Source of the DNA: Arcobacteraceae bacterium
GTDB lineage: Bacteria > Campylobacterota > Campylobacteria > Campylobacterales > Arcobacteraceae
NCBI GenBank assembly: GCA_021107755.1
Contig: JAIOSF010000030.1
Span: forward strand, 1-44,061
Direction: 5' to 3'
DNA: 44,061 bases
In this document: positions 2,794 through 30,348 of the stretch, in pieces
Numbering within the stretch: the first letter of the stretch is position 1
How the letters are laid out: the number at the start of each line of letters is the position of its first letter
The notes under the pieces: model-generated
Told to the model about the DNA's origin: nothing
The model's input: only the letters and a program-made list of their open reading frames with translations
Database searches by the model: none
Made by a program: the position numbers and the translations under genes

Positions 2794-2967
2794 TTATCTA
2801 TTGTAAGGGATAAAACTATTCGGCATATTTGAATCTACACTATTTTTTATAAGAGTATATCCAAGCCCAATAGCTAATAATCCAGATACAACCATATAAA
2901 CGATCTTTCTTTTTTGTGGTGATTCATTTCCATTGTAATCATCAATTTGATTTAATGTTGGTTCCAT
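2794..2967 (-). CDS. Small single-span membrane protein (57 aa), divergent to the copper receptor
   Basis: A 57-aa reading frame starting MEPTLNQIDDYNGNESPQKR, with one hydrophobic helix at about residues 22-40 and a short C-terminal tail ending NSFIPYNR. The Lys/Arg pair just before the helix predicts a cytoplasmic N-terminus and a periplasmic tail containing one Met. The start has a clear ribosome site (AGAAGGA, about 6 nt upstream). Its promoter is well formed: on the minus strand two TTAAC half-sites 11 bp apart are followed 10 nt later by TATAAT (3003-2998). This mirrors the promoters of the neighbouring copper-locus genes. I recognise no family. Promoter sharing suggests an accessory role in that locus (inference). 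Confidence 0.75.
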   Translation of the reverse strand: MEPTLNQIDDYNGNESPQKRKIVYMVVSGLLAIGLGYTLIKNSVDSNMPNSFIPYNR

Positions 2968-2997
2968 TTTTTTCCTTCTAAAGTAAATTCAGATCAA

Positions 2998-3058
2998 ATT
3001 ATAAACCTCTTTTGTTAAGTAATTGTTAATTAACACATAATTAACAAAAGTCTATTAC
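2998..3058. promoter_or_regulatory. Divergent operator-promoter of the copper locus
   Basis: Four half-sites form an exact dyad centred between 3029 and 3030: GTTAA at 3014-3018 and 3025-3029, TTAAC at 3030-3034 and 3041-3045. Each same-orientation pair is spaced 11 bp, as in sites bound by tandem OmpR/PhoB-type regulators. Leftward, TATAAT lies at 3003-2998 (minus strand). Rightward, a -10-like TATTAC lies at 3053-3058. No good -35 is visible; the second half-site of each pair occupies the spacer side of the -35 region, as expected of an activator. Confidence 0.65.
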
Positions 3059-3095
3059 CATTTCAACTTAATTTCAAAACTTCAAAAGGACAAAT

Positions 3096-5108
3096 ATGAA
3101 AAAAAAGATAGTATTATCAATCGCTGCAGCTTTTGTAATAAGTGCACAGGCAGAAGATTTAGGGACTATAGAGATCAAAGAAGAAGTAAACACAAAAGTT
3201 GTTAATAATATCAGTACACAAGAGGTAAAAAATGCAGACCTAGCGGAAGCACTAGCAAAAAAATCTGCAAGTATCTCCCTTATAAGAAGAAGTGGTATTG
3301 CAAATGATATAGTTCTTAGAGGTCAAAAAAGAGATAACATCAAAGTAACTATAGATGATGGTATGGTTTGTGGTGCTTGTCCGAATAGAATGGATCCTCC
3401 AACTTCACATGTTATTACAACTATGGTTGATAGTGTAGAGATAAAAGAGGGTCCATTTGATGTAACAGAGTTTGGAACTCTAAGTGGCGGAGTAAAAATC
3501 AAAACTGTACAACCGCAAGAGGGTTTACATGGTGAAATTGGTACTACTATTGGAAGTTATGGATACAAAAAAGGTATTATAAGTGTAAGTGGTGGAAATG
3601 ATAAAATCAAAGCACTATTTACATACTCAAAAGAGGAAAGTGATCAGTATGAAGATGGTGATGGAAATACAATGGCTGAACAAACTGCATTAGCTCAAGA
3701 TCCTACTAAATACAATACTGGAACTGACAATAGATATTTAGATGCTTATAAGGATATGAAAGCTTACGAAAAAAGATCTATTATGGCAAAAGCTATTGCA
3801 AATATCTCAGATACACAAGACCTAGAAATAAGTGCTACACAAAATAGAAGTGATGATATACTTTATCCATCTAGTGGGATGGATGCACTTTATGATGATA
3901 GTAATTTATATAATGTAAAATATACTGCTAGAGAGTTAGGAAGTTTTTCAAAGAAACTTGAAGTGAAAGCTTATAGAACAGATGTGGACCATCCAATGTC
4001 AATTGATTATAGAATAAAAAATAATTTTGTTCCAGCAGCGATGAAAGGATTAACAAACCATCTTACTACAGATGTTACAGGTGCAAAAATTATTAATACT
4101 TTTGATGCATTAAGTAGAGAATTTACAATAGGTCTTGATAGCAGTAAGAGAAATTGGGATGGAAAATATTATAGCAATATGAATCCCTCTATAAGAAAAA
4201 GTATCAACGATACAGATACAAAAAACAATGCAATATTTATAAAGTGTAAAAATCAATTAGACAAATTAACTCTAGAATTAGGTGCAAGATATGACTCAAC
4301 AAAAATAGATACTAATGGCGCAGAGCAAGATAATAAATATACTGATTTTAGTGGAAATATTATGGCTACATATAATAGTGATGAAAATACAAAGTATTTT
4401 ATTGGATTAGGACAAGCTAGCCGTGTTCCAGATGCAAGAGAATTATATTTTGTAGCTTCAAATGGTACTAGCGTAGGAACAGAAGATTTAAAAGCTACAA
4501 CAAATAGAGAGTTAGACTTTGGAACAGAACACTATTATAAAGATGGAAAAATTAAAGCAAAATTTTTCTATAGTGATTTAAAAGACTATATCTACTATAG
4601 AGATACAGGTGCAGCAACTAATAAGTTTGAAAATATTGATGCTAAGATATATGGATTAGAGTTTAGTGGTTCTTATTATATCAATGAACAATTTACACTT
4701 GATGGTGGATATACTTACAAAATTGGTAAAAAAGATAAAGCCATAGCTGGTCAAACAGATACAGATTTAGCAGATATTACACCAGCAAAACTAACTCTTG
4801 CACTTAACTATGATTATAATAACCACACAAATGCAATGATAGAATTTATCAATGTATCATCATGGAATAAATATGATAGTGATAATGGAGAGCAACATAT
4901 ATCTGGATACAATATAGTTAATCTTAAAGCACAAACAACTGTTGCCAAAAATTTTGAAATCACTGTAGGGATTGATAACCTTTTTGACAAAACTTATGCT
5001 GTTTCAAACACATACAGAGACTTAACACTTTTAAGTGATGGAACAGAAGTTATGCTTTTAAATGAACCAGGAAGATATATCTATACTAGCTTAAAATATA
5101 AATTCTAA
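3096..5108 (+). CDS. oprC: TonB-dependent copper receptor, OprC/NosA type
   Basis: A 670-aa outer-membrane receptor with a signal peptide (MKKKIVLSIAAAFVISAQA, cut before EDLG), an N-terminal plug domain (about 35-140) and a 22-strand type barrel ending in aromatic YTSLKYKF. The plug contains GACPNRMDPPTSH, the signature of the OprC/NosA copper-receptor family. C95 and M99 form a CxxxM motif, and H299-P-M301 forms HxM in the barrel. In P. aeruginosa OprC these two motifs together bind copper. C92 is an additional nearby Cys. The start ATG is preceded by AAAAGGA. Role: energy-dependent uptake of copper into the periplasm, driven by the ExbB/ExbD/TonB genes nearby. Assignment to copper is firm at family level; whether Cu(I) or Cu(II) is taken up is not visible. 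Confidence 0.92.
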   Translation: MKKKIVLSIAAAFVISAQAEDLGTIEIKEEVNTKVVNNISTQEVKNADLAEALAKKSASISLIRRSGIANDIVLRGQKRDNIKVTIDDGMVCGACPNRMDPPTSHVITTMVDSVEIKEGPFDVTEFGTLSGGVKIKTVQPQEGLHGEIGTTIGSYGYKKGIISVSGGNDKIKALFTYSKEESDQYEDGDGNTMAEQTALAQDPTKYNTGTDNRYLDAYKDMKAYEKRSIMAKAIANISDTQDLEISATQNRSDDILYPSSGMDALYDDSNLYNVKYTARELGSFSKKLEVKAYRTDVDHPMSIDYRIKNNFVPAAMKGLTNHLTTDVTGAKIINTFDALSREFTIGLDSSKRNWDGKYYSNMNPSIRKSINDTDTKNNAIFIKCKNQLDKLTLELGARYDSTKIDTNGAEQDNKYTDFSGNIMATYNSDENTKYFIGLGQASRVPDARELYFVASNGTSVGTEDLKATTNRELDFGTEHYYKDGKIKAKFFYSDLKDYIYYRDTGAATNKFENIDAKIYGLEFSGSYYINEQFTLDGGYTYKIGKKDKAIAGQTDTDLADITPAKLTLALNYDYNNHTNAMIEFINVSSWNKYDSDNGEQHISGYNIVNLKAQTTVAKNFEITVGIDNLFDKTYAVSNTYRDLTLLSDGTEVMLLNEPGRYIYTSLKYKF

Positions 5109-5115
5109 TCAAAAT

Positions 5116-5136
5116 AAAGAGGACTTCTCCCTCTTT
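5116..5136 (+). terminator. Hairpin between copper receptor and exbB
   Basis: AAAGAGG (5116-5122) pairs with CCTCTTT (5130-5136) across a 7-nt loop. The T tract is short. It separates the receptor transcript from the operator-promoter of exbB just downstream. Confidence 0.5.
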
Positions 5137-5146
5137 AATTAACTAA

Positions 5147-5176
5147 TTAACAATTACTTAACACTTTTTTTATATT
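5147..5176 (+). promoter_or_regulatory. Operator-promoter upstream of exbB
   Basis: TTAAC at 5147-5151 and 5158-5162, spaced 11 bp, are followed 8 nt later by a -10-like TATATT (5171-5176). A further TTAAC lies at 5139-5143. The arrangement matches the sites before the copper receptor, the second receptor and tonB. Confidence 0.6.
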
Positions 5177-5201
5177 ATTTTCAAAATTTATGGAGAGTAT
5201 A

Positions 5202-5639
5202 GTGGATATAGAACTTTTAAAAAACATTGTTGATTATGGGATCATTGGATTATTAGGATTTATGAGCTTTTTATCTTTTTGGCTTTATATAGAACGACTT
5301 TTATTTTATAAAAATATTGATATAAAAAACTATTCAAAAAAAGAACAATTAGAGATTGATCTTACAAATAATATATCAATCATCTCTTCTTTTGGATCAA
5401 ATGCCCCATATATAGGACTTCTTGGAACTGTATTTGGTATCATTATCACATTTTATACTATGGGACAAAGTGGAGATATAGATGTAAAAACTATCATGAG
5501 TTCTCTAGGACTTGCTCTAAAAGCTACTGCAATGGGTCTAGTTGTAGCAATACCAGCTATAATGTTTTACAATCATTTAACTAGAAAAGTTGAAGTAAAA
5601 CTTGCACTATGGGATATGGAGTTTATAAGTGCAACTTAA
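5202..5639 (+). CDS. exbB: ExbB-type proton channel protein
   Basis: A 145-aa inner-membrane protein of the MotA/TolQ/ExbB family that with ExbD uses the proton gradient to energise TonB. Three membrane segments are visible: one near the N-terminus (GIIGLLGFMSFLSFWLYIE) and a pair in the second half containing the family motif GSNAPYIGLLGTVFGII and the Ala/Thr/Gly-rich ALKATAMGLVVAIPAIMFY. I prefer the GTG start at 5202, which has GGAG 6 nt upstream. The in-frame ATG at 5190 has no ribosome site and would add four residues that contain it. It overlaps exbD by 11 bases, so the two are translationally coupled. Confidence 0.9.
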   Translation: MDIELLKNIVDYGIIGLLGFMSFLSFWLYIERLLFYKNIDIKNYSKKEQLEIDLTNNISIISSFGSNAPYIGLLGTVFGIIITFYTMGQSGDIDVKTIMSSLGLALKATAMGLVVAIPAIMFYNHLTRKVEVKLALWDMEFISAT

Positions 5640-6009
5640 AAAATTCGATACTATCAATGTTGTACCATTTATAGATATTATGCTAGTACTTTTAGTAATA
5701 GTACTTACTACTGCATCTTTTGTAGCTAGAGGAATCATACCAGTTGATTTGAGCGAGGGGAAAAGTGCTACAAAACTAACTGAGCAAAAAATAGTCACAA
5801 TAACTATAAAAGATACCGGTGAACTTTTTTTTAATAAGATAGTTACAACACATAATGAAATCGAACAAAAACTTTCAAAGCTAAAAACCTCAACACCCAT
5901 TAGTATTAACTGTGATAAAAAAGCAAAATTTGAAAACTTTGTTAAAGTGATAGATATACTAAAACTTAAAAACTTCACAAATCTAAGTATAGTTACAAAG
6001 CAAGAATAA
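5629..6009 (+). CDS. exbD: ExbD-type biopolymer transport protein
   Basis: A 126-aa protein of the ExbD/TolR family, partner of ExbB in the TonB motor. It has a short cytoplasmic N-terminus with NVVPFIDIMLVLLVI, where the Asp in the single membrane helix is the proton-carrying residue of the family, followed by a periplasmic domain of about 90 residues. The start is GTG inside the end of exbB. It is followed by about 100 bases containing the operator of the second receptor gene. Confidence 0.9.
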   Translation: MQLKKFDTINVVPFIDIMLVLLVIVLTTASFVARGIIPVDLSEGKSATKLTEQKIVTITIKDTGELFFNKIVTTHNEIEQKLSKLKTSTPISINCDKKAKFENFVKVIDILKLKNFTNLSIVTKQE

Positions 6010-6047
6010 TAAACAAACGAATACTTTAATTTAAATTTAATCTTAAA

Positions 6048-6080
6048 TTTAACACCTAGTTAACACAGCTTAGCTACTAT
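6048..6080 (+). promoter_or_regulatory. Operator-promoter upstream of second TonB-dependent receptor
   Basis: TTAAC at 6049-6053 and 6060-6064, spaced 11 bp. The 18-base stretch 6048-6065 differs from the copper-receptor site (3029-3046) at only three bases. A -10-like TACTAT lies at 6075-6080. Confidence 0.6.
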
Positions 6081-6112
6081 TTCAAAATTTCAAACGATAA
6101 CAAAGGGTGTTT

Positions 6113-8287
6113 ATGAATAAAAAAGTATATATTTCGCTAATCACGGCATTAGTAGTTAATGCAAATGCAGCAGATTTAGGAACTATTAGTGTTGAGTCTT
6201 CAACTATTGGTGATGTAGGAACAATAAATAAAAAAACAGAGTCGTCTACTATAAATCATATTGACTCTGAACTCATAGAAACAATCAATCCAAAAAACAT
6301 CAATGAAGTACTACAAACTATTCCAGGAATTACAGCAGATGTACGATCAACAATTGTTGAAATCCATATAAGAGGTATAGCTCAGCAAGAATTTATGTGG
6401 GAAGATACAGGTGTTGCAATCCTTATTGATGGTGTTCCATTACTCCAAAATGGTGGAAAAGTTAGATTGAATCTAGATAATATTGAATCTATTAAAGTCA
6501 TAAAAGGAGGTGCAAGTTACCTTTATGGGAATAATGCAATGGCTGGTGCATTATTAATCACTACTAAAAAACAAAAGAATAAAAACGGGGGTAGTATTTC
6601 AGTTGAATATGGTAGCGAAAATTTTAAAAATATAAAAGGATCAATCTATAAAGGTACAGAAGACTACTCACTTAACCTTAATTCTAACTATAGAAGTACC
6701 GATGGATACTGGGAAAAAACTTATGTTCAATTAAAATCAATCAATGGTAAAGGGCAATACTATATTGATGAAACAAGTGATTTGACCCTTGGTGCAGATA
6801 TAACAAGAAAATATGATGAAACAACAGGAGGAAGTGTGACAGGTATGAGTGAAGCACTTTCTAATCCTACAGGTGAAGGTGATGGTAGTGTAGCTAGAAC
6901 TGCTGAGTTTTATACGGACCTTGATAAGTACTTTCTTACTTATAATAAAGACTTTAGTGATACAGCTAATCTAAAAGTAAACACTTATTACTATAAAGAT
7001 TTATATGATTATGTTGGAGGACCTGCAGATTTAAATGGAGATAATCTTAATGATACACATACAACTAAAACTGAAGAACTTATTAATCAATACGGTATTA
7101 AAACGGAGTTTAAAGATTCAATTGATCAATTAGCATATTTAATTGGAGTAGATTTAGGACAAAAAGAGTTAGAAACAGATACTCTTACAACTGTAACCTA
7201 TATGTATAGAGGTCCAGCTTCTTACCACCACAATGGAGAATTAGATAATTCCGTAACCGATGAAGACAACCAAGCGATTTATACAGAACTTCAATATAAT
7301 ATAACACCTAAATTAACGACAACTTTTAATGCAAGATTAGATCAAGACAAATATACCTATACAGTTAATCAACTTGATGCAGGAACGGCAATTGTACCTG
7401 TATGGAATAATGTATATATAAGTAGAAATAAAAACTTTACAAATGATTCATACAGAGTTGGTTTTGCTTATCAATTAGATGACGATCAAACTATTTACTC
7501 TAATATTTCAACAGGATTTAGAAACCCTTTAGTCTCAGATATATATAAAGGTGACTTTGACAGTGATTACACAAATAATACAGACCTTAAACCTGAAACT
7601 ACTCTGAGTTATGAATTAGGGATTAGAGGAGATTATCCATTTCTAGACAATAGCTTGGGCTATGAAGTAACCGTATTTCATACTGATACAAAAGATATAA
7701 TTGGAAGAAATGGTGGAACATACTATAGTAATAATGCAGATCTAATGATGGATAATGTTGGTGATGCAGTTAATAGAGGACTTGAACTTATGTTAAAAAC
7801 AGATACTAGCAAAACCCTCTCTGCGAATCTTTCTTATACTTATTTAGATTCATATTACACCTCTCATCAACCATTTTGGATTGACTTAGGAACACAAAGA
7901 AGTGCTGTAGGTGACCAATCATTTGATATTAAAGGTAATGAGCTTCCAAGAGTACCGCATCATAAATTAGATATTATGGTTAATTATAAAATCACTCCTA
8001 AACTAGACTTAATGACTGAATTTTATGCGCAATCAAGTTACTATGCAGATGAAACAAACTTTGTAAAAATGCCTGGATATGAAAAAATCAATATGAAACT
8101 AACTTATGAACATAATAGTCATTGGACATACTTTACTAAAATAGATAATATTTTTGATAAACAACATGTAAGAACAGCTTTTGCTACAAGTGATAGAAAT
8201 ACAAATGGTGTACTTGACATCGAAGATGTAACAATCACTGTTGATCCAGGTAGAGTATTTTATATGGGTTTACAATATAAATTCTAG
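6113..8287 (+). CDS. TonB-dependent outer-membrane receptor, ligand unknown
   Basis: A 724-aa receptor with signal peptide MNKKVYISLITALVVNANA, a plug domain (about residues 40-155, with PKNINEVLQTIPGI and YLYGNNAMAGALLITTKK) and a barrel ending VFYMGLQYKF. The overall form is that of the siderophore/FepA-like class. It lacks the CxxxM and HxM motifs of the copper receptor, so it probably takes a different ligand, perhaps a chelated metal. I start it at the ATG at 6113, placed 6 nt after AAAGGG, rather than the in-frame GTG at 6107 inside that ribosome site. The shared operator and downstream genes place it in the copper regulon, but the substrate cannot be read from sequence. Confidence 0.88.
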   Translation: MNKKVYISLITALVVNANAADLGTISVESSTIGDVGTINKKTESSTINHIDSELIETINPKNINEVLQTIPGITADVRSTIVEIHIRGIAQQEFMWEDTGVAILIDGVPLLQNGGKVRLNLDNIESIKVIKGGASYLYGNNAMAGALLITTKKQKNKNGGSISVEYGSENFKNIKGSIYKGTEDYSLNLNSNYRSTDGYWEKTYVQLKSINGKGQYYIDETSDLTLGADITRKYDETTGGSVTGMSEALSNPTGEGDGSVARTAEFYTDLDKYFLTYNKDFSDTANLKVNTYYYKDLYDYVGGPADLNGDNLNDTHTTKTEELINQYGIKTEFKDSIDQLAYLIGVDLGQKELETDTLTTVTYMYRGPASYHHNGELDNSVTDEDNQAIYTELQYNITPKLTTTFNARLDQDKYTYTVNQLDAGTAIVPVWNNVYISRNKNFTNDSYRVGFAYQLDDDQTIYSNISTGFRNPLVSDIYKGDFDSDYTNNTDLKPETTLSYELGIRGDYPFLDNSLGYEVTVFHTDTKDIIGRNGGTYYSNNADLMMDNVGDAVNRGLELMLKTDTSKTLSANLSYTYLDSYYTSHQPFWIDLGTQRSAVGDQSFDIKGNELPRVPHHKLDIMVNYKITPKLDLMTEFYAQSSYYADETNFVKMPGYEKINMKLTYEHNSHWTYFTKIDNIFDKQHVRTAFATSDRNTNGVLDIEDVTITVDPGRVFYMGLQYKF

Positions 8288-8301
8288 AATCAATATTATA
8301 T

Positions 8302-8961
8302 ATGCAATACACACCTTACATCTCTATATTTCTTATAGGGCTTAGTTTCGGAGCAACGGCGTGCATGTTTTCATGTATGCCGTTTCTTACGCCTATACTT
8401 ATAAAAAGCTCAAATAACATAAAACAATCATTAGCAGTAATGATCCCTTTTAGTTTAGGGAGAATTTTTACTTATACTATGATTGCTATGCTGGCATTTG
8501 GTAGTTCATTATTTATAAAAGAGCTTTTAAAAAACAATACACTTTTGAGTTATATTTTAGGAACAGTTACTATTATCTTAGGTATCACAATGCTTTATAA
8601 TAGTTACAAAAATAATAAAAGTTGCGGTATTCATAAACTTTTAGTAAAAGAACAAAGTTTTTCAAAACTAGGTTTTTTTACTATGGGTGCAACTATATCT
8701 ATAAATCTATGTACACCTGTAATTTCACTTATAACAATTTCAAGTAGCACTACTACAATCTATTCAGCAATTGCTTTTGGAATAGTTTTTGGTGTTGGGG
8801 CAGTTTTATTTACACTTTTATTTTATGGATTTTTCTTCTCTACACTTATTAGAGGATTGCTTGAACAATTTACTCAGTATAAAAAACCTGTAGAAGTTAT
8901 AGCTTCACTATTTTTAATATTGGTTGGTATTTTAATAATCAGTGGCAACATGTCACTCTAA
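8302..8961 (+). CDS. CcdA/DsbD-like transmembrane thiol transporter
   Basis: A 219-aa polytopic membrane protein of the group annotated as cytochrome c biogenesis transmembrane region or sulfite exporter TauE/SafE. The first helix holds C21-MFS-C25-MPFLTP and the fourth holds C137-TP. Paired Cys-x-Pro motifs in the first helix of each half match the CcdA/DsbD plan, in which those Cys residues carry reducing equivalents from cytoplasmic thioredoxin to the periplasm. There are about six helices. It starts 14 bases after the receptor stop with no clear ribosome site, so translation may be coupled. Related proteins occur near copper-handling genes of cbb3 oxidase assembly. A role keeping copper or Cys ligands reduced is inference. 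Confidence 0.75.
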   Translation: MQYTPYISIFLIGLSFGATACMFSCMPFLTPILIKSSNNIKQSLAVMIPFSLGRIFTYTMIAMLAFGSSLFIKELLKNNTLLSYILGTVTIILGITMLYNSYKNNKSCGIHKLLVKEQSFSKLGFFTMGATISINLCTPVISLITISSSTTTIYSAIAFGIVFGVGAVLFTLLFYGFFFSTLIRGLLEQFTQYKKPVEVIASLFLILVGILIISGNMSL

Positions 8962-8970
8962 AGGAACACA

Positions 8971-11691
8971 ATGGTTGATTTTATCAAAAGAGATAACAAT
9001 GATATGTTTAAAAACCCAATTTTTAGGTTTTTATTTAAAAACACAAAATTTCTTTTAGTTTTAAGAATAGCAGTTACCCTGCTTTTCTTTTATGCTGTTT
9101 ATTACGGATTTGTACATCCAACTCGTGATGAAAATATTTTCACTGGTGCAGTTTTTTGGGGAATATTCTGGGCACTTTTTATGGTAGTTACACTGTCTAC
9201 TTTTGGAAGAATTTTCTGTGGTATCTGTCCACATGGATTTTTAGGAAAATATATCACAAAATTTGGTTTGAAAAAAACCATGACTAAATGGATGCAAAAC
9301 AGATACATCGGTATTACATTACTTGTGATTGGTTGGTGGGGAATTTATTATACATTTCCTGGATTTTGGAGAACACCACTAGGTACTGCTTCTATGTTTG
9401 GTGGTATGACTTTAGTTGCATTTGTTTTTTATTTTATCTATAAAGAGATGAGTTATTGTAAATATATTTGTCCTATTGGAACACTTACAAGAGCTTATGA
9501 CAAATTATCATTTACAAAACTAGAAACCTATACTGACTCTTGTAAGGATTGTAGAACTTTTGAATGTGCTACTGCATGTGAATACGATTTAAAACCATTT
9601 ACATTTGCAAAGAAAAATCAAACTGATGATTGTACTTTATGTATGGATTGTGCAGTATCTTGTGAAGCTGTTAAATTTAAACTTACAAAACCAGCAGAAC
9701 AACTAGGAAGTAAACTGAAAATTTTAAGTGCTGAAGTTTGGACATATATACTTATATTTGCTTCTATTCCTGTATCTATGGGATTTGCACATGGTCTAAA
9801 TAGAACTAAAATAGCAGATGAATTTATCTGGAATAAAACTGCCGAATTTTTTGGTTTAACTCCATATGCGGGTGGATTTGCTTTTCTTTATGCTGTTATT
9901 TTTAGTGTATTCTTTGCTACATTTGGAATCTATATCGCTTCTAAAATATTAAAAAAAGAATACAGTTCTACCTTTACTAATTTAGGTATTGCTTTTATTC
10001 CACTTTTTATCTTTGCATCACTTGGACATACTTTAGAAACTTTTTTTATCAAAGATTATGTAACAATAGTAGATGGCTTTGCACAAGGTTTTGGTTTTAA
10101 TGTTGAAGTGGAAGCTTTGGCAAAAAGAGGTGATGGCTGGCTTCATTATTTTGGATTATTTAAATGGATAGGAATTATTTGGTCATTGATCCTTTTATAT
10201 AAACGAATGAAACTTATTGATGCTACAAAACTTCGTAAAACATTTGGATACTTTTTTGCCTCATTGATGATACTTTTCTATATAGGATTAAATATCTATA
10301 CAGGGTATGTATTCTCAAAATATGGTGCAAAATCACGAGGTGGACATTCTCATGGTGGAAATGGAAAAGCAATGTTCCAAACAGTACCATTTAAATCTGC
10401 AACTCTTTTACAAGCTGGAAAAGATAAAACAAGTGGCGTAGTATGTGGAATGAATCTCCCTATGTTCTATAAAACAAATCATAGTGCTACACTTGATGGA
10501 AAAGTAAGACAATATTGTTCTATTCATTGTTTAGCTGAAGATTTACGAATCAAAAAATTACCACTAGAAAATATGCAAGTGGTGGATGTGACTAGCTTAA
10601 AATTTATCTCTGTAAAAGATGCTTTTTATGTAGTGGGAAGTAAACAAGCTGGAACTATGAGTCGTACTAGTAAATATGCTTTTGCCACAGAAAAAGATGC
10701 TTTAGAATTTGTTAAAAAATATGGTGGAGAAATTGTAAATTTTAGAAAAGCAGTTTATTTTGCAATGCAAGATTTTTCAAAAAAACCTTATGGAACTCGT
10801 ACAGAAAAAACTGTTTTAGATTTAACCCAACCATTATATCTTACACTTAAAGACCCATCTACATCTAAAGAAAAATCAGGTGAACACATGCACGGTGGTG
10901 GTGGAAAACCAAAACCAAAAGGATATATACCTACACAAAAGGTTTATATTTCAACTCTTGAAAATAAAAGTGTGACTCCAAAAAATATAGAGTTTTTTTA
11001 CTATGATATAAAACAAATTAAAAAAGATATTATCAAAAATAGTTCAAGAGGAAAAGAAACATATAGTTTTGAAGTGCCAAATAATGGATACTATAATCTT
11101 TTTGCAGTAGCACAAAGTACAAAAGATGATAAAAAATTTTACAATGTAGCAAAACTAGAGTATCTTCAAGGGAAACATGGCATTGAAGATATTTATGATG
11201 AAGAACTTAAAAAAAATCTTGAACAAAACCTCAGTAAAATTGACTTAATAAGAATAAAAAATGAAGATGAAAATAGCTTTTTTTATAGATTTAAAATGGG
11301 AGATACTTTAAAATTTCAAGCAATGTTTAATCAAAAACCACTACCAAATGCAAAAGTAAATATCAAACTCCAAAGTGGTTGGGAAAAAACTTCTATTACT
11401 AATGAAAAGGGGGAAGTTGAACTTACTATCATAAGAGACTATTTCCCACCTTGGGATAAATTTGACAAGCGATTTAAACAAGATTTATTGATAACTTTAG
11501 AACATGATACTGCTTATACAAAATATACACTGACATACCCTGCATCTTTTTACCCAAATGAAAGTGACTACAAATCATACGCTTATGCATTGCTACTAAT
11601 AACTCTTACACTTCTTGTATCTGGTATAGTTATCTATAGATTTAGAAAAAATAGAACTGCACCTTTTTCAGAGGTGAAGTTCAATGAGTAA
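8971..11691 (+). CDS. Membrane polyferredoxin fused to NosL-like and C-terminal periplasmic domains
   Basis: A 906-aa protein with an unusual domain order. Residues 30-260: NapH/NosR/CcoG-like membrane part with C83-GI-C86-P and C163-KYI-C167-P, then two ferredoxin cluster sites (C191, C194, C199, C203; C221, C224, C227, C231). Residues 260-450: further membrane helices. Residues 459-461: HSH in a Gly-rich stretch. Residues about 490-600: NosL-like, with C492-GM and YC516-SIH-C520, as in the copper chaperone of nitrous oxide reductase. A second His-rich stretch has H639-M-H641. Residues about 655-865: a beta-rich domain resembling DUF4198 (low certainty). A final helix spans about 872-893. 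AAAGGA precedes the ATG. Likely role: electron transfer across the membrane to periplasmic copper (inference). Confidence 0.82.
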   Translation: MVDFIKRDNNDMFKNPIFRFLFKNTKFLLVLRIAVTLLFFYAVYYGFVHPTRDENIFTGAVFWGIFWALFMVVTLSTFGRIFCGICPHGFLGKYITKFGLKKTMTKWMQNRYIGITLLVIGWWGIYYTFPGFWRTPLGTASMFGGMTLVAFVFYFIYKEMSYCKYICPIGTLTRAYDKLSFTKLETYTDSCKDCRTFECATACEYDLKPFTFAKKNQTDDCTLCMDCAVSCEAVKFKLTKPAEQLGSKLKILSAEVWTYILIFASIPVSMGFAHGLNRTKIADEFIWNKTAEFFGLTPYAGGFAFLYAVIFSVFFATFGIYIASKILKKEYSSTFTNLGIAFIPLFIFASLGHTLETFFIKDYVTIVDGFAQGFGFNVEVEALAKRGDGWLHYFGLFKWIGIIWSLILLYKRMKLIDATKLRKTFGYFFASLMILFYIGLNIYTGYVFSKYGAKSRGGHSHGGNGKAMFQTVPFKSATLLQAGKDKTSGVVCGMNLPMFYKTNHSATLDGKVRQYCSIHCLAEDLRIKKLPLENMQVVDVTSLKFISVKDAFYVVGSKQAGTMSRTSKYAFATEKDALEFVKKYGGEIVNFRKAVYFAMQDFSKKPYGTRTEKTVLDLTQPLYLTLKDPSTSKEKSGEHMHGGGGKPKPKGYIPTQKVYISTLENKSVTPKNIEFFYYDIKQIKKDIIKNSSRGKETYSFEVPNNGYYNLFAVAQSTKDDKKFYNVAKLEYLQGKHGIEDIYDEELKKNLEQNLSKIDLIRIKNEDENSFFYRFKMGDTLKFQAMFNQKPLPNAKVNIKLQSGWEKTSITNEKGEVELTIIRDYFPPWDKFDKRFKQDLLITLEHDTAYTKYTLTYPASFYPNESDYKSYAYALLLITLTLLVSGIVIYRFRKNRTAPFSEVKFNE

Positions 11692-12673
11692 AATTAAAAC
11701 AATCGTAAATAATATGAATCTTACAAAAGTAAGATTTACTATTCAATTACTCACCTTTATACTTTTTGTATATGGTGGATATTTTGCTATTGATTTTGGA
11801 TCAAAACTTCCTATATTTGCCTGTCCATACAATGGAGAAGCTGCGGGGGCTTGTTATTTAATCCCTTTACAACATCAACTAAGTATGCCTGCACAAGTTT
11901 TACTAGGTGGTGCTGGGATTGCAGTTATAATAGGTTTTTTAACATTTCTTTTTTGGTTTATCTTTTTAAATAAAGCTTGGTGTGGATATGTGTGTCCATT
12001 TGGTACTTTTCAAGATTGGCTTACACTTTTACGAAAAAATATGGGGATAAGATTTTCAACCTATACTCAAACACAATTTGAAAAACTTTCAAAAATCAAA
12101 TATATACTTTTAACTATTGTAATACTTGTACCACTTCTTATGGGTGTTGGTGCATTATCAGCTGAATGGTCAGCTGCATTTTGTCAAATCTGTCCAGCAA
12201 GAATCATCTCTCCTATGTTTAGTGGAGATTTTTCTCAATGGACAATAGACTTTTCTACTAAAACAGCTATGGTATTAACAGCTATTGGGATGATATTTGC
12301 TGGACTTTTTTTAATTGGAAGTTTTGTTAAAAAAAGATTTTTTTGCTTCTTTTGTCCTATGAGTGCTTTGCATTATATTTTTTCAAAGTTCTCGATTGTA
12401 AGTTTACAAAAAGATGGAAGTAAATGTACTCGTTGTGGAGATTGTTATACTGTATGTGATATGCAAATAAAAGATATAGCAGATGATGTTACAAGTACAA
12501 ATATCTTAAGAGATGATTGTATTTTGTGTTTAAAATGTATAGCTGCTTGTCCTGAAGATGATGCACTTCATTTTGATATATTAAAACTCAAAACATTTAG
12601 CTCTACAAAGCAAGGTTTTGAAAAAAGAATGGGAATAGAAAGACCAGAAGGATTAAACAATGAGTCACATTAA
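11684..12673 (+). CDS. NapH-like membrane polyferredoxin
   Basis: A 329-aa integral membrane iron-sulfur protein. Three CxxCP-type motifs mark the NapH/NosR/CcoG fold: C100-GYV-C104-P, C167-QI-C170-P and C221-FF-C224-P. Near the C-terminus are two [4Fe-4S] ferredoxin sites, C248/C251/C254/C258 and C279/C282/C285/C289. Its start overlaps the end of the preceding polyferredoxin by 8 bases, and its own end overlaps the next gene by 14, so the three are translationally linked. In NapGH systems such proteins pass quinol electrons; CcoG is a cupric reductase. No nap or nos catalytic gene is present here, which favours a metal-handling role (inference). Confidence 0.85.
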   Translation: MSKIKTIVNNMNLTKVRFTIQLLTFILFVYGGYFAIDFGSKLPIFACPYNGEAAGACYLIPLQHQLSMPAQVLLGGAGIAVIIGFLTFLFWFIFLNKAWCGYVCPFGTFQDWLTLLRKNMGIRFSTYTQTQFEKLSKIKYILLTIVILVPLLMGVGALSAEWSAAFCQICPARIISPMFSGDFSQWTIDFSTKTAMVLTAIGMIFAGLFLIGSFVKKRFFCFFCPMSALHYIFSKFSIVSLQKDGSKCTRCGDCYTVCDMQIKDIADDVTSTNILRDDCILCLKCIAACPEDDALHFDILKLKTFSSTKQGFEKRMGIERPEGLNNESH

Positions 12674-13949
12674 TACAAACCAAAATCATAAAATAGAAAC
12701 ACCACATGAGAAACAAAATAGACATAAAGCTATGGAAGCTATTAAAGTTATCAATACTTTAAAAGAGGAATTTAAATCTCCAATAAAATCTATGGATTAT
12801 TTTTATACTTTATTTGAAGATGTGTATTGCCATCAAAAATCTCTTCACAATGATAAAGTAAAAGTTGGAACTATGTGTATTCAAATACCTAGTGAGATCA
12901 TCTATGCACTTGATGGAGTTCCTATTCGACTTTGTAATGGATTTTACACAGATGATGAACTAGGAAGTGATCTTATGCCATCAAAATCTTGTCCACTTGT
13001 AAAAGCGAGTGTTGGTCACTTATCAAGTCAAAATTTAAGTGATAAACCACATATGATCTATAGTCCAACAACATGTGACCAAAAAACAAAAGCTGGGGCA
13101 ACCATTGAAAGTTTTGGATACGATGTAGTTGATGTAGATTTTCCACGAACAAAAGAGAGTGAAATAAGTCGTGAGTTTTTTAGAAGAAGTATAAGAAATT
13201 TTGCCGTAGATTTATCAAAAAAAACTGGAAAGAAACTTACTAAAAAGAATTTAAAAAGTTCAATTGGAAAAGTTGGATATGCCCAATCTTTATATCATAG
13301 ATTATCAGATTTACGAAAGAACAAAAATGTCCCTATTTTAGGTGTAGATATGTTCTTGGTGACCAATGCTTTTTTCTTTGATAAGATTAACAACTGGATA
13401 GAAGCTACAGAACACTTACTTCAAGAACTTGAAACAAGAGTCAAAGAAAATATACATGTGGCAGGAAAAATTAGTCCTCGAATAGTCTATACAGGTTCAC
13501 CTCCTATTTTTCCAAACTATAAAATACCACTTTTAATCGAAGAATCAGATGCCATAATCGTAGCAGATGAAACTTGTAGTTCAAATAGAATGTTCAATGA
13601 TAGAGTTGCTGTGGATGAATGGTTTGTAAATAATATGTTGGATTCTATGGCTGATAAATATCTCAAATCTTGTACTTGTCCAATATTCTCAAAAAATGAT
13701 GACCGAATAAGAAGAATCATAGAACTTGTTCGTTCACACGATGCAGATGGTGTAGTCTATCAAGCTTTTGCTGGCTGTACAGTTTATGAACTAGAACAAA
13801 GAAGTGTTTTAGAAGCTATGGAGAAAGAGGGGATCTCAATTCTTTATTTAGAAAGTGATTATTCTCCTAGTCAAAGTGGACAGCTTAGCACTAGAGTTGA
13901 AGCATTTATAGAATCACTTAAAATGAAAAAACGAAAAAAAGGTAAATAG
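12660..13949 (+). CDS. 2-hydroxyacyl-CoA dehydratase family protein, double-cubane type
   Basis: A 429-aa member of the benzoyl-CoA reductase/2-hydroxyacyl-CoA dehydratase family. True dehydratases need two such subunits; here one subunit is followed directly by an activase. That is the arrangement of the double-cubane [8Fe-9S] cluster proteins (DCCP, E. coli YjiM-like), which perform ATP-dependent low-potential reductions and whose natural substrate is unknown. Cys residues available for the cluster include C92, C111, C139, C306, C338/C340 and C373, spread over both lobes. The first 40 residues are polar and variable. It overlaps the upstream polyferredoxin by 14 bases. Co-operonic position suggests that it exchanges electrons with the polyferredoxins (inference). 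Confidence 0.82.
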   Translation: MSHINTNQNHKIETPHEKQNRHKAMEAIKVINTLKEEFKSPIKSMDYFYTLFEDVYCHQKSLHNDKVKVGTMCIQIPSEIIYALDGVPIRLCNGFYTDDELGSDLMPSKSCPLVKASVGHLSSQNLSDKPHMIYSPTTCDQKTKAGATIESFGYDVVDVDFPRTKESEISREFFRRSIRNFAVDLSKKTGKKLTKKNLKSSIGKVGYAQSLYHRLSDLRKNKNVPILGVDMFLVTNAFFFDKINNWIEATEHLLQELETRVKENIHVAGKISPRIVYTGSPPIFPNYKIPLLIEESDAIIVADETCSSNRMFNDRVAVDEWFVNNMLDSMADKYLKSCTCPIFSKNDDRIRRIIELVRSHDADGVVYQAFAGCTVYELEQRSVLEAMEKEGISILYLESDYSPSQSGQLSTRVEAFIESLKMKKRKKGK

Positions 13950-13950
13950 T

Positions 13951-14754
13951 ATGAAATATTTTGCAGGTATCGATATAGGCTCAACTGCCATTAAAATCTC
14001 CATCGCTGATGAAAATAAAAATCTCGTAGGGCACAAAATTAGTGCTAGTGGAAGTATGTTTTATCAATATGCTCATGAAACTTTAGATGCACTTATTAGT
14101 GAGATAGGGATAAAGAAAGAAGATATTATCTATACAGTTGCCACTGGTTATGGGAGAAAAATATTTAAAGAAGCTGATGAAAACATTAGTGAGATAACGG
14201 CAAATGCAATTGGAGCTAGAGCTTCTGCAAAAGGTCATGGGGAGATTAAAACTATCATAAATATTGGTGGTCAAGATAGTAAAGCTATCTCACTAGATGA
14301 TGAGGGAAATGTAACAAACTTTGCTATGAACGATAGATGTGCAGCAGGAACTGGAAAATTTCTTGATGCCTGTGCTATGAATCTTGAAATTAGAGTTGAA
14401 GATTTAGGGGAGAAACATTTTGCCTCAACAGGAACTCCTTTGTCTATAAATAGTACTTGTGCAGTATTTGCAGAAAGTGAGATTATTGGACTTTTAGGAA
14501 ATAGTCATAATGTAGAAGATATTGTTTGTGGAGTTCATTACTCTATAGCAAAAAGAATTGTAAAACTTGTAAAAAGAGTTGGAGTTAAAGAGGGGATATA
14601 TTTTGATGGTGGTCCAGCACTAAATGGAGGACTTGTAAATGCAATTGAAAATGAACTAAGCAAAAAAATATTTATACCACAATATCCACAAATCACAACA
14701 TCTTATGGAGCTGCAATTATAGGTATAGATTCTTATAATTATGAGAATAATTAA
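13951..14754 (+). CDS. ATP-dependent activase/reductase of the double-cubane protein (BadF/BadG/HgdC family)
   Basis: A 267-aa ASKHA-fold ATPase. It has the phosphate-binding motif GIDIGST (residues 6-12), a second nucleotide motif GGQDSKAI (106-113), and the two Cys residues C130 (NDRCAAGTG) and C170 (NSTCAVFAESE). These correspond to the HgdC cysteines that hold one [4Fe-4S] cluster between two subunits. The family couples ATP hydrolysis to injecting an electron into its partner cluster. It begins one base after the stop of the double-cubane gene, so the pair is certainly co-expressed. E. coli YjiL is a related protein. It is the last gene before the separate tonB promoter. Confidence 0.9.
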   Translation: MKYFAGIDIGSTAIKISIADENKNLVGHKISASGSMFYQYAHETLDALISEIGIKKEDIIYTVATGYGRKIFKEADENISEITANAIGARASAKGHGEIKTIINIGGQDSKAISLDDEGNVTNFAMNDRCAAGTGKFLDACAMNLEIRVEDLGEKHFASTGTPLSINSTCAVFAESEIIGLLGNSHNVEDIVCGVHYSIAKRIVKLVKRVGVKEGIYFDGGPALNGGLVNAIENELSKKIFIPQYPQITTSYGAAIIGIDSYNYENN

Positions 14755-14755
14755 A

Positions 14756-14786
14756 ATTAACACATAATTAACACTTCTTTTATAAA
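14756..14786 (+). promoter_or_regulatory. Operator-promoter upstream of tonB
   Basis: TTAAC at 14757-14761 and 14768-14772, spaced 11 bp. The 18 bases 14756-14773 are identical to 3029-3046 upstream of the copper receptor, 11.7 kb away. TATAAA at 14781-14786 is the likely -10, 8 nt after the second half-site. Confidence 0.65.
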
Positions 14787-14819
14787 ATAGAAATATTAAT
14801 TTGAAAAAAGGGAGTAATT

Positions 14820-15539
14820 TTGAATATAAAAAGATATTTTAACTCATTGTTATTAACTTCTATATTCTATAGTTTCTTAAGTTTTACTCTTCTTTATTCA
14901 TTTAATGATACTTATACAACTCCACCTAAAACACAAAATTCAACTCAAAATGTAAAATTTACCCTTATAAATTTACCAAAACAAATAGAACAACCTAAAG
15001 TAGAAAAAAAAGAGATAAAACCTCAACCAAAAAAAATAGAAAAGAAAATTGTAAAAAAAATTAATCCTAAAAAAATAGCTCCAAAAAAAATAGTTAAAAA
15101 GATTGAACCATTATTAAAACCTAAGCCAAAAAAGATTGTAAAAAAGCAGATTGAAAAACCAATAAAAAAAACAAATCAAATTGTTGCCAATCAAATAAAA
15201 AAGAATAAATCTATTATAAAAAAACAAACTGTTCAAACAGATACAAAGCAATTACAAATTAAACAAAACAAATACTATGCACATATAAAAAAAACTATAG
15301 ATAAAAATAAATTTTATCCAAAAATTGCTGTAAGAAGAGGGATACAAGGTGATGTTAAAATAAAATGTGTCCTATCAAAAAAGGGAGATCTCATCTCTTT
15401 TAAAATAGTTGATGGGAGAAAAATATTTTTTAAATCTATTAACGAAGCTATTAATAACACTTTTCCACTTGCCCCACCAGAAAATATTTTTACAGCAAAT
15501 TTTGATATAGATCTTACTTTACAATATAAGCTATACTAA
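14820..15539 (+). CDS. tonB: TonB energy transducer
   Basis: A 239-aa protein with an N-terminal membrane anchor (about residues 9-28) and a long periplasmic Lys/Pro/Ile-rich spacer (about 50-145) of repeated PKKI/VKK units. The C-terminal TonB domain (about 155-239) contains YPKIAVRRGIQGDVKIKCVL and a final beta-strand segment. It would connect the ExbB/ExbD motor to the two outer-membrane receptors. The start is a TTG with AAGGGAG 6-7 nt upstream; no ATG fits. The gene has its own copy of the TTAAC operator, so it is controlled with the receptors though placed at the far end of the locus. Confidence 0.92.
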   Translation: MNIKRYFNSLLLTSIFYSFLSFTLLYSFNDTYTTPPKTQNSTQNVKFTLINLPKQIEQPKVEKKEIKPQPKKIEKKIVKKINPKKIAPKKIVKKIEPLLKPKPKKIVKKQIEKPIKKTNQIVANQIKKNKSIIKKQTVQTDTKQLQIKQNKYYAHIKKTIDKNKFYPKIAVRRGIQGDVKIKCVLSKKGDLISFKIVDGRKIFFKSINEAINNTFPLAPPENIFTANFDIDLTLQYKLY

Positions 15540-27906: not shown

Positions 27907-29124
27907 TCATCTTATAATCTTTAATTCAATACTACTATCACTATAACTATATTCTAAAGCATAACCATTTAATGCAATAATATTTTTTATAATAAATAAT
28001 CCAAAACCATATCCCGTAGAACTTTTATGTCTTTGATTTTTATCTATTTTCCAATTCTTTAGATCTTGGGATAAATCAACTGGTAGTTTATCACCAATAT
28101 TAATAAATGAGATACTATTCTTTGAGCATTTTATAATTAATTTTTTATCATCTGCATATTTTAAAGCATTGTCAATTAAATTTTTAAAACATAATATCCA
28201 TAACTCTTTATCACCTTGTATTTCAAAATTATCACAATTTTCTATTAATATATTATTTTTGTTTTCCATGCCAACTTTTTCAATAGCTAAGGTTAAAATA
28301 TTATGGGTATTATGAGGTATTAGTTCTATATTATTTTGATATACGATTAAACTCTCAATTACTGAAAATTCATCTAGTTCATTATTCAATCTATTTAGTA
28401 AGATATTGAATTTATCATGTGTATATTTAGAAGGCTCTTGTTTTAGATAAAACATCCCTTTTGCAATTGGCATTTTCATCTCATGCATAAATATTTTATT
28501 GAACATCTCTCTAGTTTCTAAAATATATTTTATTTTTCCTATTGATTTATTATAAGAACTAATCATCTGTTTTATCTCGTCATAGCTAGAGTCTAATTGA
28601 AGAGGAGTTAAATCTCCATCTTCTAAATTATGTAATTTATTTTGCATTAAAGATAATGGATTTAAAGATTTTTTTACTCTAATATATAAAAGAATTTGAG
28701 AGATAAGTAAAACTAAAAATACTCCATGTATAATAATCATATTTTCATTTTTTTTAGTATCCTCAACAAATATTTCAGATATTGAGTTATATATATGGAT
28801 TACTTTTATGTTATTGAATTCTATTACCGTAAAGCCTTTGGCACTATTTCCTTTTTGGGTAACTATTTTATGCTGTTTTGGTATAGATTTTTTATAAACT
28901 TGCATATCTAAGATTTTTAAATTATCATTATTTATTGGGATAGATTGTACTAATAATGGTTGTAAAGAGCTAACAGCACTAAAATATCTAGCCATAGTAT
29001 GCTCTTTGTGCTGATGAATTTGTTGGATATAAAAAACAATCCATAATATAACAATAAATAAAAAAGATAAAACAAATAAAAAACTTGTTTGTGCTAAAAG
29101 TGAATTTTTAATTTTATTCAACAA
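27907..29124 (-). CDS. Sensor histidine kinase, ArsS-like
   Basis: A 405-aa two-component kinase with helices at about 13-33 and 128-148, a small periplasmic sensor between them, and a HAMP-like region. The H box is FMHEMKMPIAKG with phosphoacceptor H214; its MPIAKG context resembles the ArsS group of Helicobacter and Campylobacter. The ATPase domain has the N box NLIDNALKYADD and the G box GYGFGLFIIKN. It overlaps the response regulator gene by 11 bases, so the two form one unit. The signal is unknown. The genes that share its promoter element point to envelope or redox stress (inference). Confidence 0.9.
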   Translation of the reverse strand: MLNKIKNSLLAQTSFLFVLSFLFIVILWIVFYIQQIHQHKEHTMARYFSAVSSLQPLLVQSIPINNDNLKILDMQVYKKSIPKQHKIVTQKGNSAKGFTVIEFNNIKVIHIYNSISEIFVEDTKKNENMIIIHGVFLVLLISQILLYIRVKKSLNPLSLMQNKLHNLEDGDLTPLQLDSSYDEIKQMISSYNKSIGKIKYILETREMFNKIFMHEMKMPIAKGMFYLKQEPSKYTHDKFNILLNRLNNELDEFSVIESLIVYQNNIELIPHNTHNILTLAIEKVGMENKNNILIENCDNFEIQGDKELWILCFKNLIDNALKYADDKKLIIKCSKNSISFINIGDKLPVDLSQDLKNWKIDKNQRHKSSTGYGFGLFIIKNIIALNGYALEYSYSDSSIELKIIR

Positions 29125-29776
29125 TTCTATATCCTCTACCTCTTAGGGAAATTATATGTTTTCCCTCTGAATATGGTTTTATTTTTTGTCTTATTTTGCT
29201 GATAATCATCTCTAAAGAATTTCCATTATGTGAGTGTATTGATAGTGCACTACCTAGAAGTTGTTCTTTTGAAGATATTCCACCATAGTTTTTTACAAGT
29301 GTTTTACACACTTCAAATTCTGCTTCTGTTAAATAAAGTAGATTATCTTTATATTTTATATCTCTTGAGTTCTCATCTATAATAAAATCTCTTTGAGCTT
29401 GTTGATTTTCTTTTAGATTTTTTGTTCTTCTAAGTATGCTTGAAATTCTTGCGTATAATTCATCTGGGTCATAAGGTTTTGGAAGATAATCATCTGCCCC
29501 AATCCCTAAACCCAATACTTTATCAGATGTACTACCTCTTGCTGTTGAGATGATAATAGGAATATCACTTTTTTTTCTAAATTCTTTACAAACTTCAAGA
29601 CCATCAATCCCTGGAAGTCCTAAATCTAATAACACTAAATCATAATCATTTAGATTTAAAACCAAAGCTTTAAAAGGGTCATCACAAACTTCAGTCTGTA
29701 TATTTCTTGCTCCTAAAAAATCATCAATAAGTTCTGCAAATTCTAAATCATCTTCAACTAGTAGTAATTTTATCAT
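29114..29776 (-). CDS. OmpR-family response regulator
   Basis: A 220-aa regulator with a receiver domain (1-115): acidic pair E8/D9/D10, phosphoacceptor D51 (LLDLGLPG) and the Lys in PKPYDPDEL. A winged-helix DNA-binding domain follows (about 125-220), with LLYLTEAEFEVCKTL and SLRGRGYRIV. It pairs with the overlapping ArsS-like kinase and lies one base after the cytochrome c'-like gene, so it is probably expressed from that gene's promoter. It is the natural candidate to bind the 31-bp element found there and upstream of the Spy-like gene (inference). Confidence 0.93.
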   Translation of the reverse strand: MIKLLLVEDDLEFAELIDDFLGARNIQTEVCDDPFKALVLNLNDYDLVLLDLGLPGIDGLEVCKEFRKKSDIPIIISTARGSTSDKVLGLGIGADDYLPKPYDPDELYARISSILRRTKNLKENQQAQRDFIIDENSRDIKYKDNLLYLTEAEFEVCKTLVKNYGGISSKEQLLGSALSIHSHNGNSLEMIISKIRQKIKPYSEGKHIISLRGRGYRIVE

Positions 29777-29777
29777 T

Positions 29778-30242
29778 TTAATCCATTAAATATTTTACTT
29801 TATCTTTGTATGCTGTATGACAATTGATACAACTTGTACTAAATTCAGTTACAGCGTCAAAAGCTTTATTCCAATCTTTTGCATTAACAGCTTTTTCTAT
29901 TGCTTCAACATCTTCATCCATTTTCTTATCATAATAAACTAGCATTGATTTAAATCCTTCTTGATCCTCTTTTGCCATAATAACCCATGGTTTTTTTCTT
30001 GGAGCTGGATGAGTTCTAATCAAATCAATACCTCTATCAACTAAAAATTTATTCATACTAAGTATACCAGTTTGGATATTATTATTTGCCATTGCCATAC
30101 CACTCATAAGCTGTGTATAGCTTATATCTTCTTTCTTCATACTTTTTACTAAATCATCTGCTGTTTTTTCTTGTGCAAAAAGTCCACTTGTAAGTGATGT
30201 TGTTGCAACTGCTATTATTAATAGTTTATTTAATGTTTTCAT
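29778..30242 (-). CDS. Cytochrome c'-like periplasmic haem protein
   Basis: A 154-aa protein with signal peptide MKTLNKLLIIAVATTSLTSGLFA and a single haem c site at the C-terminal end, C138-IN-C141-H142. A C-terminal CxxCH after a mainly helical chain is the plan of cytochromes c' and c556, four-helix proteins that bind NO or transfer electrons. It heads the operon that continues into the response regulator and kinase. The ATG is preceded by AAAGGAAAGAAA. Its promoter shares a 31-bp element with the Spy/cytochrome b561 operon. The exact subfamily is uncertain. Confidence 0.82.
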   Translation of the reverse strand: MKTLNKLLIIAVATTSLTSGLFAQEKTADDLVKSMKKEDISYTQLMSGMAMANNNIQTGILSMNKFLVDRGIDLIRTHPAPRKKPWVIMAKEDQEGFKSMLVYYDKKMDEDVEAIEKAVNAKDWNKAFDAVTEFSTSCINCHTAYKDKVKYLMD

Positions 30243-30267
30243 TTTCTTTCCTTTGTTTTATTAAAGA

Positions 30268-30322
30268 AGTATATCAGTATAAGTTAATCAATATTTCAAG
30301 TAAAACTAAATGAACTTAAATA
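30268..30322 (-). promoter_or_regulatory. Promoter and conserved element of the cytochrome c'/two-component operon
   Basis: On the minus strand TATACT (30273-30268) is a -10 box. The 31 bases 30292-30322 match 31391-31421 at 28 positions, at the same distance (18 nt) from the same -10 hexamer. This looks like the activator site of the response regulator encoded downstream. Confidence 0.6.
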
Positions 30323-30348
30323 GAATAATACCTCTATATTATGATTTA

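Follow-up and report, generated by a model that had tools for sequence, protein, structure and literature searches.

A candidate copper-acquisition locus of Campylobacterota that joins TonB-dependent receptors, polyferredoxins and a double-cubane protein

In Bordetella, CrtA takes up chelated copper and shares an operon with CrpH, a putative periplasmic copper reductase (PMC12914433, PMC13038864). This pair offers a close functional analogy to the copper-chelate uptake that we propose for a locus at positions 2794–15539 of contig JAIOSF010000030.1 (assembly GCA_021107755.1, Arcobacteraceae bacterium; the whole 44,061-nt contig is called the window here). We read this locus, with a probability of about 0.5, as a Campylobacterota copper-acquisition module that would combine reductive copper release with ATP-made electrons of very low potential. 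In CrtA–CrpH, as proposed here, a TonB-dependent receptor for copper chelates stands beside an inner-membrane putative copper reductase; the Bordetella system, which serves haem-copper oxidases, is sometimes also accompanied by ExbBD–TonB and PCuAC/SCO genes (PMC12914433, PMC13038864). The two differ in regulation and in the reductase, CrpH being a haem-type PepSY_TM protein, whereas the reductase proposed for the window consists of iron–sulphur polyferredoxins, a double-cubane protein and an ATPase. Pfam models gave no PepSY match anywhere in the locus. The logic of a receptor plus an inner-membrane reductase is also that of ferrisiderophore uptake with periplasmic reduction (FpvA–FpvG, FoxA–FoxB), in which a pump recycles the ligand; there the metal, the reductase chemistry and the energy source are different.

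Individual components have described counterparts as well. The cupric reductase CcoG is, like the proteins found here, a polytopic polyferredoxin linked to copper and to cbb3 oxidase (PMC13038864), but the window differs from it in having NapH-type clusters, extra periplasmic Cys/His residues, periplasmic metal domains and a proposed ATP-driven donor, and the CcoG model was absent among the NCBIfam matches of the locus proteins. The first receptor of the locus resembles the copper receptor OprC/NosA in its copper ligands, yet it falls under the cut-off of TIGR01778 and its counterparts in relatives lie mostly outside the core locus. Double-cubane cluster proteins (DCCPs) count as the archetype of the family that contains benzoyl-CoA reductases and hydroxyacyl-CoA dehydratases, and what they do in the cell is unclear; in the related benzoyl-CoA reductases, spending one ATP on each electron might in principle push potentials toward −1 V (PMC11971306). 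The window protein belongs to the same family as the DCCPs of known structure (PDB 6eno, 7yyl), with the same cluster cysteines and a neighbouring activase gene, but it forms a clade of its own (53–86% identical, other proteins of the phylum being about 30% identical) that is tied to a metal-receptor locus. We found no description of such a gene set in the open-access papers searched, whether as double-cubane protein with TonB, as polyferredoxin with copper and a TonB receptor, or as NosL with TonB in Campylobacterota.

The genome carrying the locus is 2.62 Mb in size with about 29% G+C. Open reading frames (ORFs) and family models confirmed 11 genes, ten on the + strand and one small divergent gene, with frames that abut or overlap (Table 1). 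Along the + strand they encode an OprC-type receptor, ExbB, ExbD, a second receptor, a CcdA-like protein, a polyferredoxin with a NosL domain, a NapH-like polyferredoxin, the double-cubane protein, its activase and TonB. A sequence-only reading of the window had listed this gene set and its overlapping frames, and every gene was recovered at the place it gave.

The comparison with other genomes covered 150 genomes of the class and a scan of 85,000 species genomes, which yielded 65 loci, 32 of them at least 19 kb long (long loci). Of the 150 genomes, eight have a double-cubane protein with 58% or more identity to that of the window, each time with the same partners, and eight distant double-cubane proteins of the same class (about 30% identical) have no core partner except the activase. 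Scattering of the genes in relatives, which the sequence-only reading had named as evidence that would speak against it, is not what we observed: every one of the 32 long loci has both the double-cubane and the NapH-like gene, 31 have the CcdA-like protein, 30 the activase, 29 a TonB receptor, 27 a DUF4198-type domain and 27 the operator. The first polyferredoxin is found in 20 long loci, ExbB and ExbD in 16, NosL in 6 and the OprC motif in 2. The partner counts in the 65 loci and the 32 long loci rule out chance clustering of the core genes. The conserved core is thus a siderophore-type receptor, a CcdA-like protein, a DUF4198-type domain (either part of the first polyferredoxin or the product of its own gene), a NapH-like protein, the double-cubane protein and the activase. 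Overall, this core was counted in 72 loci. As a defining unit, the parts list of the sequence-only reading has to be redrawn, although its genes are real: it overlooked the DUF4198-type domain and included two parts that are optional, namely OprC, which adjoins the core in only 3 of the 65 recovered loci besides the window, and the fusion of NosL to a polyferredoxin, present in only about 13 of 65. Elsewhere in the genome, OprC accompanies the core more often: 8 of 8 core-bearing genomes have it, against 28 of 142 others (Fisher p 6e-6, not corrected for relatedness).

The 65 loci come mostly from Sulfurimonas, Sulfurovum, Sulfuricurvum, Arcobacteraceae, Hydrogenimonas and Nitratifractor bins, and the nearest named relatives for the core are Campylobacterota. 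A few lie in Gammaproteobacteria (Sedimenticola and others), and single bins are labelled Methylococcales, Polarisedimenticolaceae and Petrimonas; some of these outlying bins may be mis-binned. The composition of the loci also varies. The first polyferredoxin occurs beside TonB receptors without the double-cubane protein or activase in G146, G143, G127 and G060 (L071–L074), apparently a form of the system that lacks ATP-driven electrons; these loci include ExbB–ExbD–TonB in G146 and G143, an RND pump in G143 and, at some, the same operator. Another genome (G139, L066:4225-15546) carries tandem sets of receptor, metal-domain and NapH-like genes, with the double-cubane pair after only one of them. 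In about 15 of the 65 core loci the activase gene is followed, often ahead of tonB, by a gene for an RND pump of about 1026 aa (for example L209:12090-15170), which might recycle a copper ligand.

The double-cubane protein aligns across the full NF040772 model (E 1e-94); its homology is clear, but at 317 bits, under the curated cut-off of 350, it does not reach the named equivalog. It matches the DCCP structures at E about 1e-60, and its eight cluster cysteines align with theirs. Seven of these (C73, C111, C139, C306, C338, C340 and C373) are invariant among 69 relatives, and C92 is 99% conserved. The adjoining activase gene encodes cluster cysteines C130 and C170, invariant in 67 sequences. 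Identity as a 2-hydroxyacyl-CoA dehydratase or benzoyl-CoA reductase is not supported: there is a single HGD-D gene and not two different D subunits, and the HadC and BzdN models remained far under their cut-offs.

Both polyferredoxins keep every ferredoxin cysteine. In the NapH-like protein, the constant partner, C47, C57, H64, C167 and C170 are invariant in 75 of 75 sequences that diverge to 33% identity. Hydropathy and charge place the loops carrying these residues in the periplasm, facing away from the ferredoxin clusters, and the matching loops of a NapH-like protein from the nos cluster of the same genome contain no cysteine. The protein scores 81.7 bits against TIGR02163 (NapH/MauN), short of the cut-off of 213. 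In the first polyferredoxin (membrane part, residues 1–465), H274 and H353 are invariant together with all ferredoxin cysteines (42 sequences). Its NosL domain (residues 485–592, predicted to be periplasmic) reaches 55 bits against PF05573, above the gathering cut-off of 24, in agreement with the sequence-only reading. Behind it, at residues about 620–875, lies the domain which that reading had missed, a predicted periplasmic DUF4198-type metal-binding fold whose sequence match to PF10670 stays under the cut-off. Its structure model (predicted local distance difference test score 89.8) is most similar in the PDB, at TM about 0.5, to Zcp, which has been solved with Zn, Co and Cu, and to a DUF4198 protein with bound Ni. 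The periplasmic Cys/His of the NapH-like protein and the outside-facing metal domain, both placed by prediction, point to an outward direction of electron flow. C21, C25, C108 and C137 of the CcdA-like protein are invariant in 57 sequences.

The copper ligands of Pseudomonas aeruginosa OprC are C143, M147, H323 and M325, as defined by its solved copper site (PMC8610252). On alignment, the motif GACPNRMD is identical in the window receptor, and DHPM stands opposite DHIM; all four ligands (CxxxM and HxM) are therefore retained, as had been claimed from the sequence, in a protein that scores 198 bits against the TIGR01778 cut-off of 472. CxNRMD is present in all 30 OprC-type relatives within the class. 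The second receptor has siderophore receptors as its nearest PDB entries, which suggests a chelated substrate, and its plug residues H87 and M97 are kept in 95% of 38 relatives. A model scan of the TonB receptors of several core loci reached no model with a named substrate. In two genomes the second receptor is broken into several ORFs (G134, L064:7004-9083; G053, L069:10462-12643), which may be decayed, mis-sequenced or mis-called by a simple gene caller.

Independent of the annotation of the locus, its link to copper is backed by an operator–promoter that precedes copper genes elsewhere. TTAACA-N5-TTAACA, an 11-bp direct repeat, has five exact copies in the genome, all inside the locus, where repeated operators had been noticed before. 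Repeats of 11 bp are the form bound by OmpR/PhoB-type regulators. In 83 unique sites of related loci, 26 bases separate the operator start from the start of a TATAAT-like −10 box, with the start codon a median of 61 bp downstream, a spacing that suggests an activated-promoter layout. With the reversed pattern as control, operator plus −10 box gave 8 matches in this genome (control 1) and 46 across 12 genomes (control 7). The eight sites here comprise the five of the locus, two before NosL genes on contig 16 and one before a NosL-like gene on contig 19 (no Pfam match, NosL similarity judged by eye), which is followed by a DsbD_2 gene. The contig 16 NosL genes are in tandem (L114:10125-12079), one with two NosL domains, each behind its own operator.

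Elsewhere in Campylobacterota the operator stands before OprC, NosL, ExbB–ExbD–TonB–NosL, PCuAC–SCO1, NosZ and DsbD_2–ccoNO genes, before the core itself, and before an OmpR-type regulator with its kinase; hidden Markov models confirmed the identity of OprC, PCuAC, SCO1 and NosZ. Two operator-preceded OprC genes are followed by ccoN; outside this genome, the gene ahead of ccoN is an OprC or DsbD_2 gene bearing the full pattern. Of 30 OprC genes, 16 have an exact operator upstream and 24 have one with no more than a single mismatch; in random windows the corresponding frequencies are 1.6% and 4.5%. The copper theme of the sequence-only reading, which had been drawn from the genes of the locus, gains strong support from this regulon, and we infer that the locus is regulated by copper. 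In seven loci, several adjoining the core, the gene of an OmpR-type regulator of one group (44–55% identical) is itself preceded by the operator, as in G134, G145 and L183, and this group is the best candidate for the regulator; its closest copy in this genome (contig 18, 3906-4571) lacks such a site. In this genome, sites before ccoN (C4) and before an OmpR-type regulator gene (C23) have no −10 box at the usual spacing and were set aside as doubtful regulon members. At L124:234-2770, L146:359-3036, L192 and L197 the operator stands ahead of paired genes for membrane proteins that contain a c-type haem domain and look like cytochrome bd-like oxidases, possibly copper-free oxidases within the copper regulon.

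Gene content, co-conservation, cofactor ligands, the shared promoter–operator and the predicted fold of the periplasmic metal domain are read from sequence; copper as the metal, the electron direction, reduction as the release step and the identity of the regulator we infer. In the proposed mechanism, the siderophore-type receptor would admit copper, probably on small organic ligands, to the periplasm, and OprC, where present, would admit ionic copper, both energized by the dedicated ExbB–ExbD–TonB. In the cytoplasm, the activase would transfer electrons to the double-cubane protein at the expense of ATP, and from there they would reach the NapH-like polyferredoxin in the inner membrane; its invariant periplasmic Cys/His would form an exit or metal site, with the first polyferredoxin, where present, as a helper or parallel electron route. 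This path, from activase through double-cubane protein and NapH-like clusters to the periplasmic Cys/His site and a metal complex, is the likely one judging from the conserved ligands, and the electron-transfer mechanism as a whole is plausible. On the periplasmic side, Cu(II)-chelates, or disulphides and thiols that hold copper, would be reduced, with the CcdA-like protein as a possible source of thiol reducing power, and freed Cu(I) would be held by the NosL and DUF4198-fold domains and then delivered for the assembly of cuproenzymes. The promoters of the locus and those of other copper-supply genes would be activated jointly by an OmpR-family regulator. That ATP-driven electrons, carried by the double-cubane cluster and a transmembrane iron–sulphur wire, strip copper from chelates beyond the reach of ordinary reductants is a tentative proposal, a little short of even odds.

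Several observations weigh against copper acquisition as the function. The energetics are its weak point: free Cu(II) is easily reduced, and an ATP-boosted donor would be excessive unless the chelate were extremely stable, so that potentials of the −1 V type matter only for a very stable chelate. The second receptor resembles siderophore receptors, and the OprC-like set of copper residues was not seen in it; in the DUF4198-type domain, not one His, Met or Cys is invariant among 65 relatives. Shared regulation is no proof of a shared metal. Allowing one mismatch, the operator gave 65 matches in this genome against 84 for the control, no excess, and therefore only exact and promoter-extended matches were used; the ccoN site of this genome lacks a −10 box at the right distance. 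Finally, the core loci are not independent, many coming from related metagenome bins, but their sequences are widely spread, NapH-like proteins reaching down to 33% identity.

One alternative is a copper-sparing programme, in which a module of the copper regulon takes up another metal chelate (iron, cobalt, nickel or corrinoid) when copper is scarce and low-potential electrons free that metal from a highly stable complex. Ferric catecholates and corrinoids do require very low potentials, DUF4198-fold proteins have been solved with Ni, Co and Zn besides Cu, the second receptor is of the siderophore type, and in two genomes (L124, L146) the operator precedes the possible copper-free oxidase pairs, for which Pfam gives the c-type domain only. 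Yet every well-identified gene of the regulon handles copper, and NosL is fused to the polyferredoxin at some loci and follows ExbBD–TonB at others; we consider this programme unlikely, though the most credible of the alternatives. Next in weight, and likewise unlikely, is a core that serves cuproenzyme assembly or maintenance in place of uptake, its electrons keeping copper chaperones, thiols or the copper sites of cbb3 oxidase or nitrous oxide (N2O) reductase reduced. Co-regulation with NosL, PCuAC–SCO1, cbb3 and NosZ genes would fit, as would the CcdA-like thiol protein and the NosL domain, and relatives of NapH and NosR work for respiratory enzymes. Against such a role, 29 of the 32 long loci have a TonB receptor beside the core, and just 4 of the 8 core genomes contain NosZ, which also rules out a general tie of the core to N2O reductase.

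An inward flow of electrons, in which the polyferredoxins feed the activase from the quinone pool or the periplasm and the double-cubane protein reduces a cytoplasmic substrate, appears improbable, even though a neighbouring polyferredoxin could donate to the activase and the related benzoyl-CoA reductases receive their electrons from reduced ferredoxin (PMC11971306). It would leave the receptors, the periplasmic metal domain and the invariant periplasmic Cys/His unexplained. The potential of quinol is, moreover, far too high to reduce the activase without an energy source. Detoxification of copper or sulphide, with periplasmic copper lowered through reduction and export, could draw on the RND pump behind the activase, but that pump fits drug-efflux models better than CusA/CzcA, TonB-dependent receptors import, and the co-regulated genes supply copper; we regard it as very improbable.

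Beside these genes, the divergent gene of the window has a homologue of 69 aa in G134, also behind an operator (L129:206-415), so that a small membrane protein of 57–69 aa is conserved in the same regulon. A separate two-component system without the operator lies at window positions 27907-31335 (−), beside cytochrome c′-like, cytochrome b561-like and Spy-like proteins.

Table 1 Genes and operator–promoter sites of the locus (window coordinates)
Feature	Position	Strand	Basis or remark
Divergent gene, 57-aa single-pass membrane protein (predicted)	2794..2967	−	ORF; own operator 3013-3029 (−)
Operator and −10 box, divergent gene	2998..3029	−	Exact full pattern
Operator and −10 box, OprC gene	3030..3061	+	Exact full pattern; 66 bp before start codon
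OprC-type TonB-dependent copper receptor	3096..5108	+	TIGR01778 E 3e-58; PDB 6fok OprC E 4.5e-32
Operator and −10 box, exbB	5147..5178	+	Exact full pattern
ExbB	5190..5639	+	TIGR02805 188 bits, above cut-off
ExbD	5629..6009	+	PF02472; TIGR02804 slightly under cut-off
Operator and −10 box, second receptor and core genes	6049..6080	+	Same position in other core loci
Second TonB-dependent receptor, siderophore-type, conserved core	6107..8287 (in-frame ATG at 6113)	+	Plug and barrel domains
CcdA/DsbD_2-like membrane protein, conserved core	8302..8961	+	PF13386
Membrane polyferredoxin with NosL and DUF4198-fold domains	8971..11691	+	Fer4_5, NosL
NapH-like polyferredoxin, conserved core	11684..12673	+	Fer4_5, Fer4_10
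Double-cubane cluster protein (HGD-D family), conserved core	12660..13949	+	NF040772; PDB 6eno, 7yyl
ATP-dependent activase (BadF/HgdC type), conserved core	13951..14754	+	TIGR00241 219 bits, above cut-off
Operator and −10 box, tonB	14757..14788	+	Exact full pattern
TonB	14820..15539	+	PF03544 E 1e-8

If copper acquisition by ATP-driven reduction is the function of this locus, it would provide the first natural role of a double-cubane protein and a new way to energize periplasmic work. The question of what DCCPs do is now directly testable, because this clade has almost fixed partners and a copper-type promoter. The gene set, found mainly in sulphur-associated Campylobacterota, would fill a gap in copper nutrition, the supply of cbb3 oxidase and of N2O reductase, a sink for a greenhouse gas, in sulphidic, copper-poor places. 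The operator is a ready source of candidate copper genes for the whole bacterial class.

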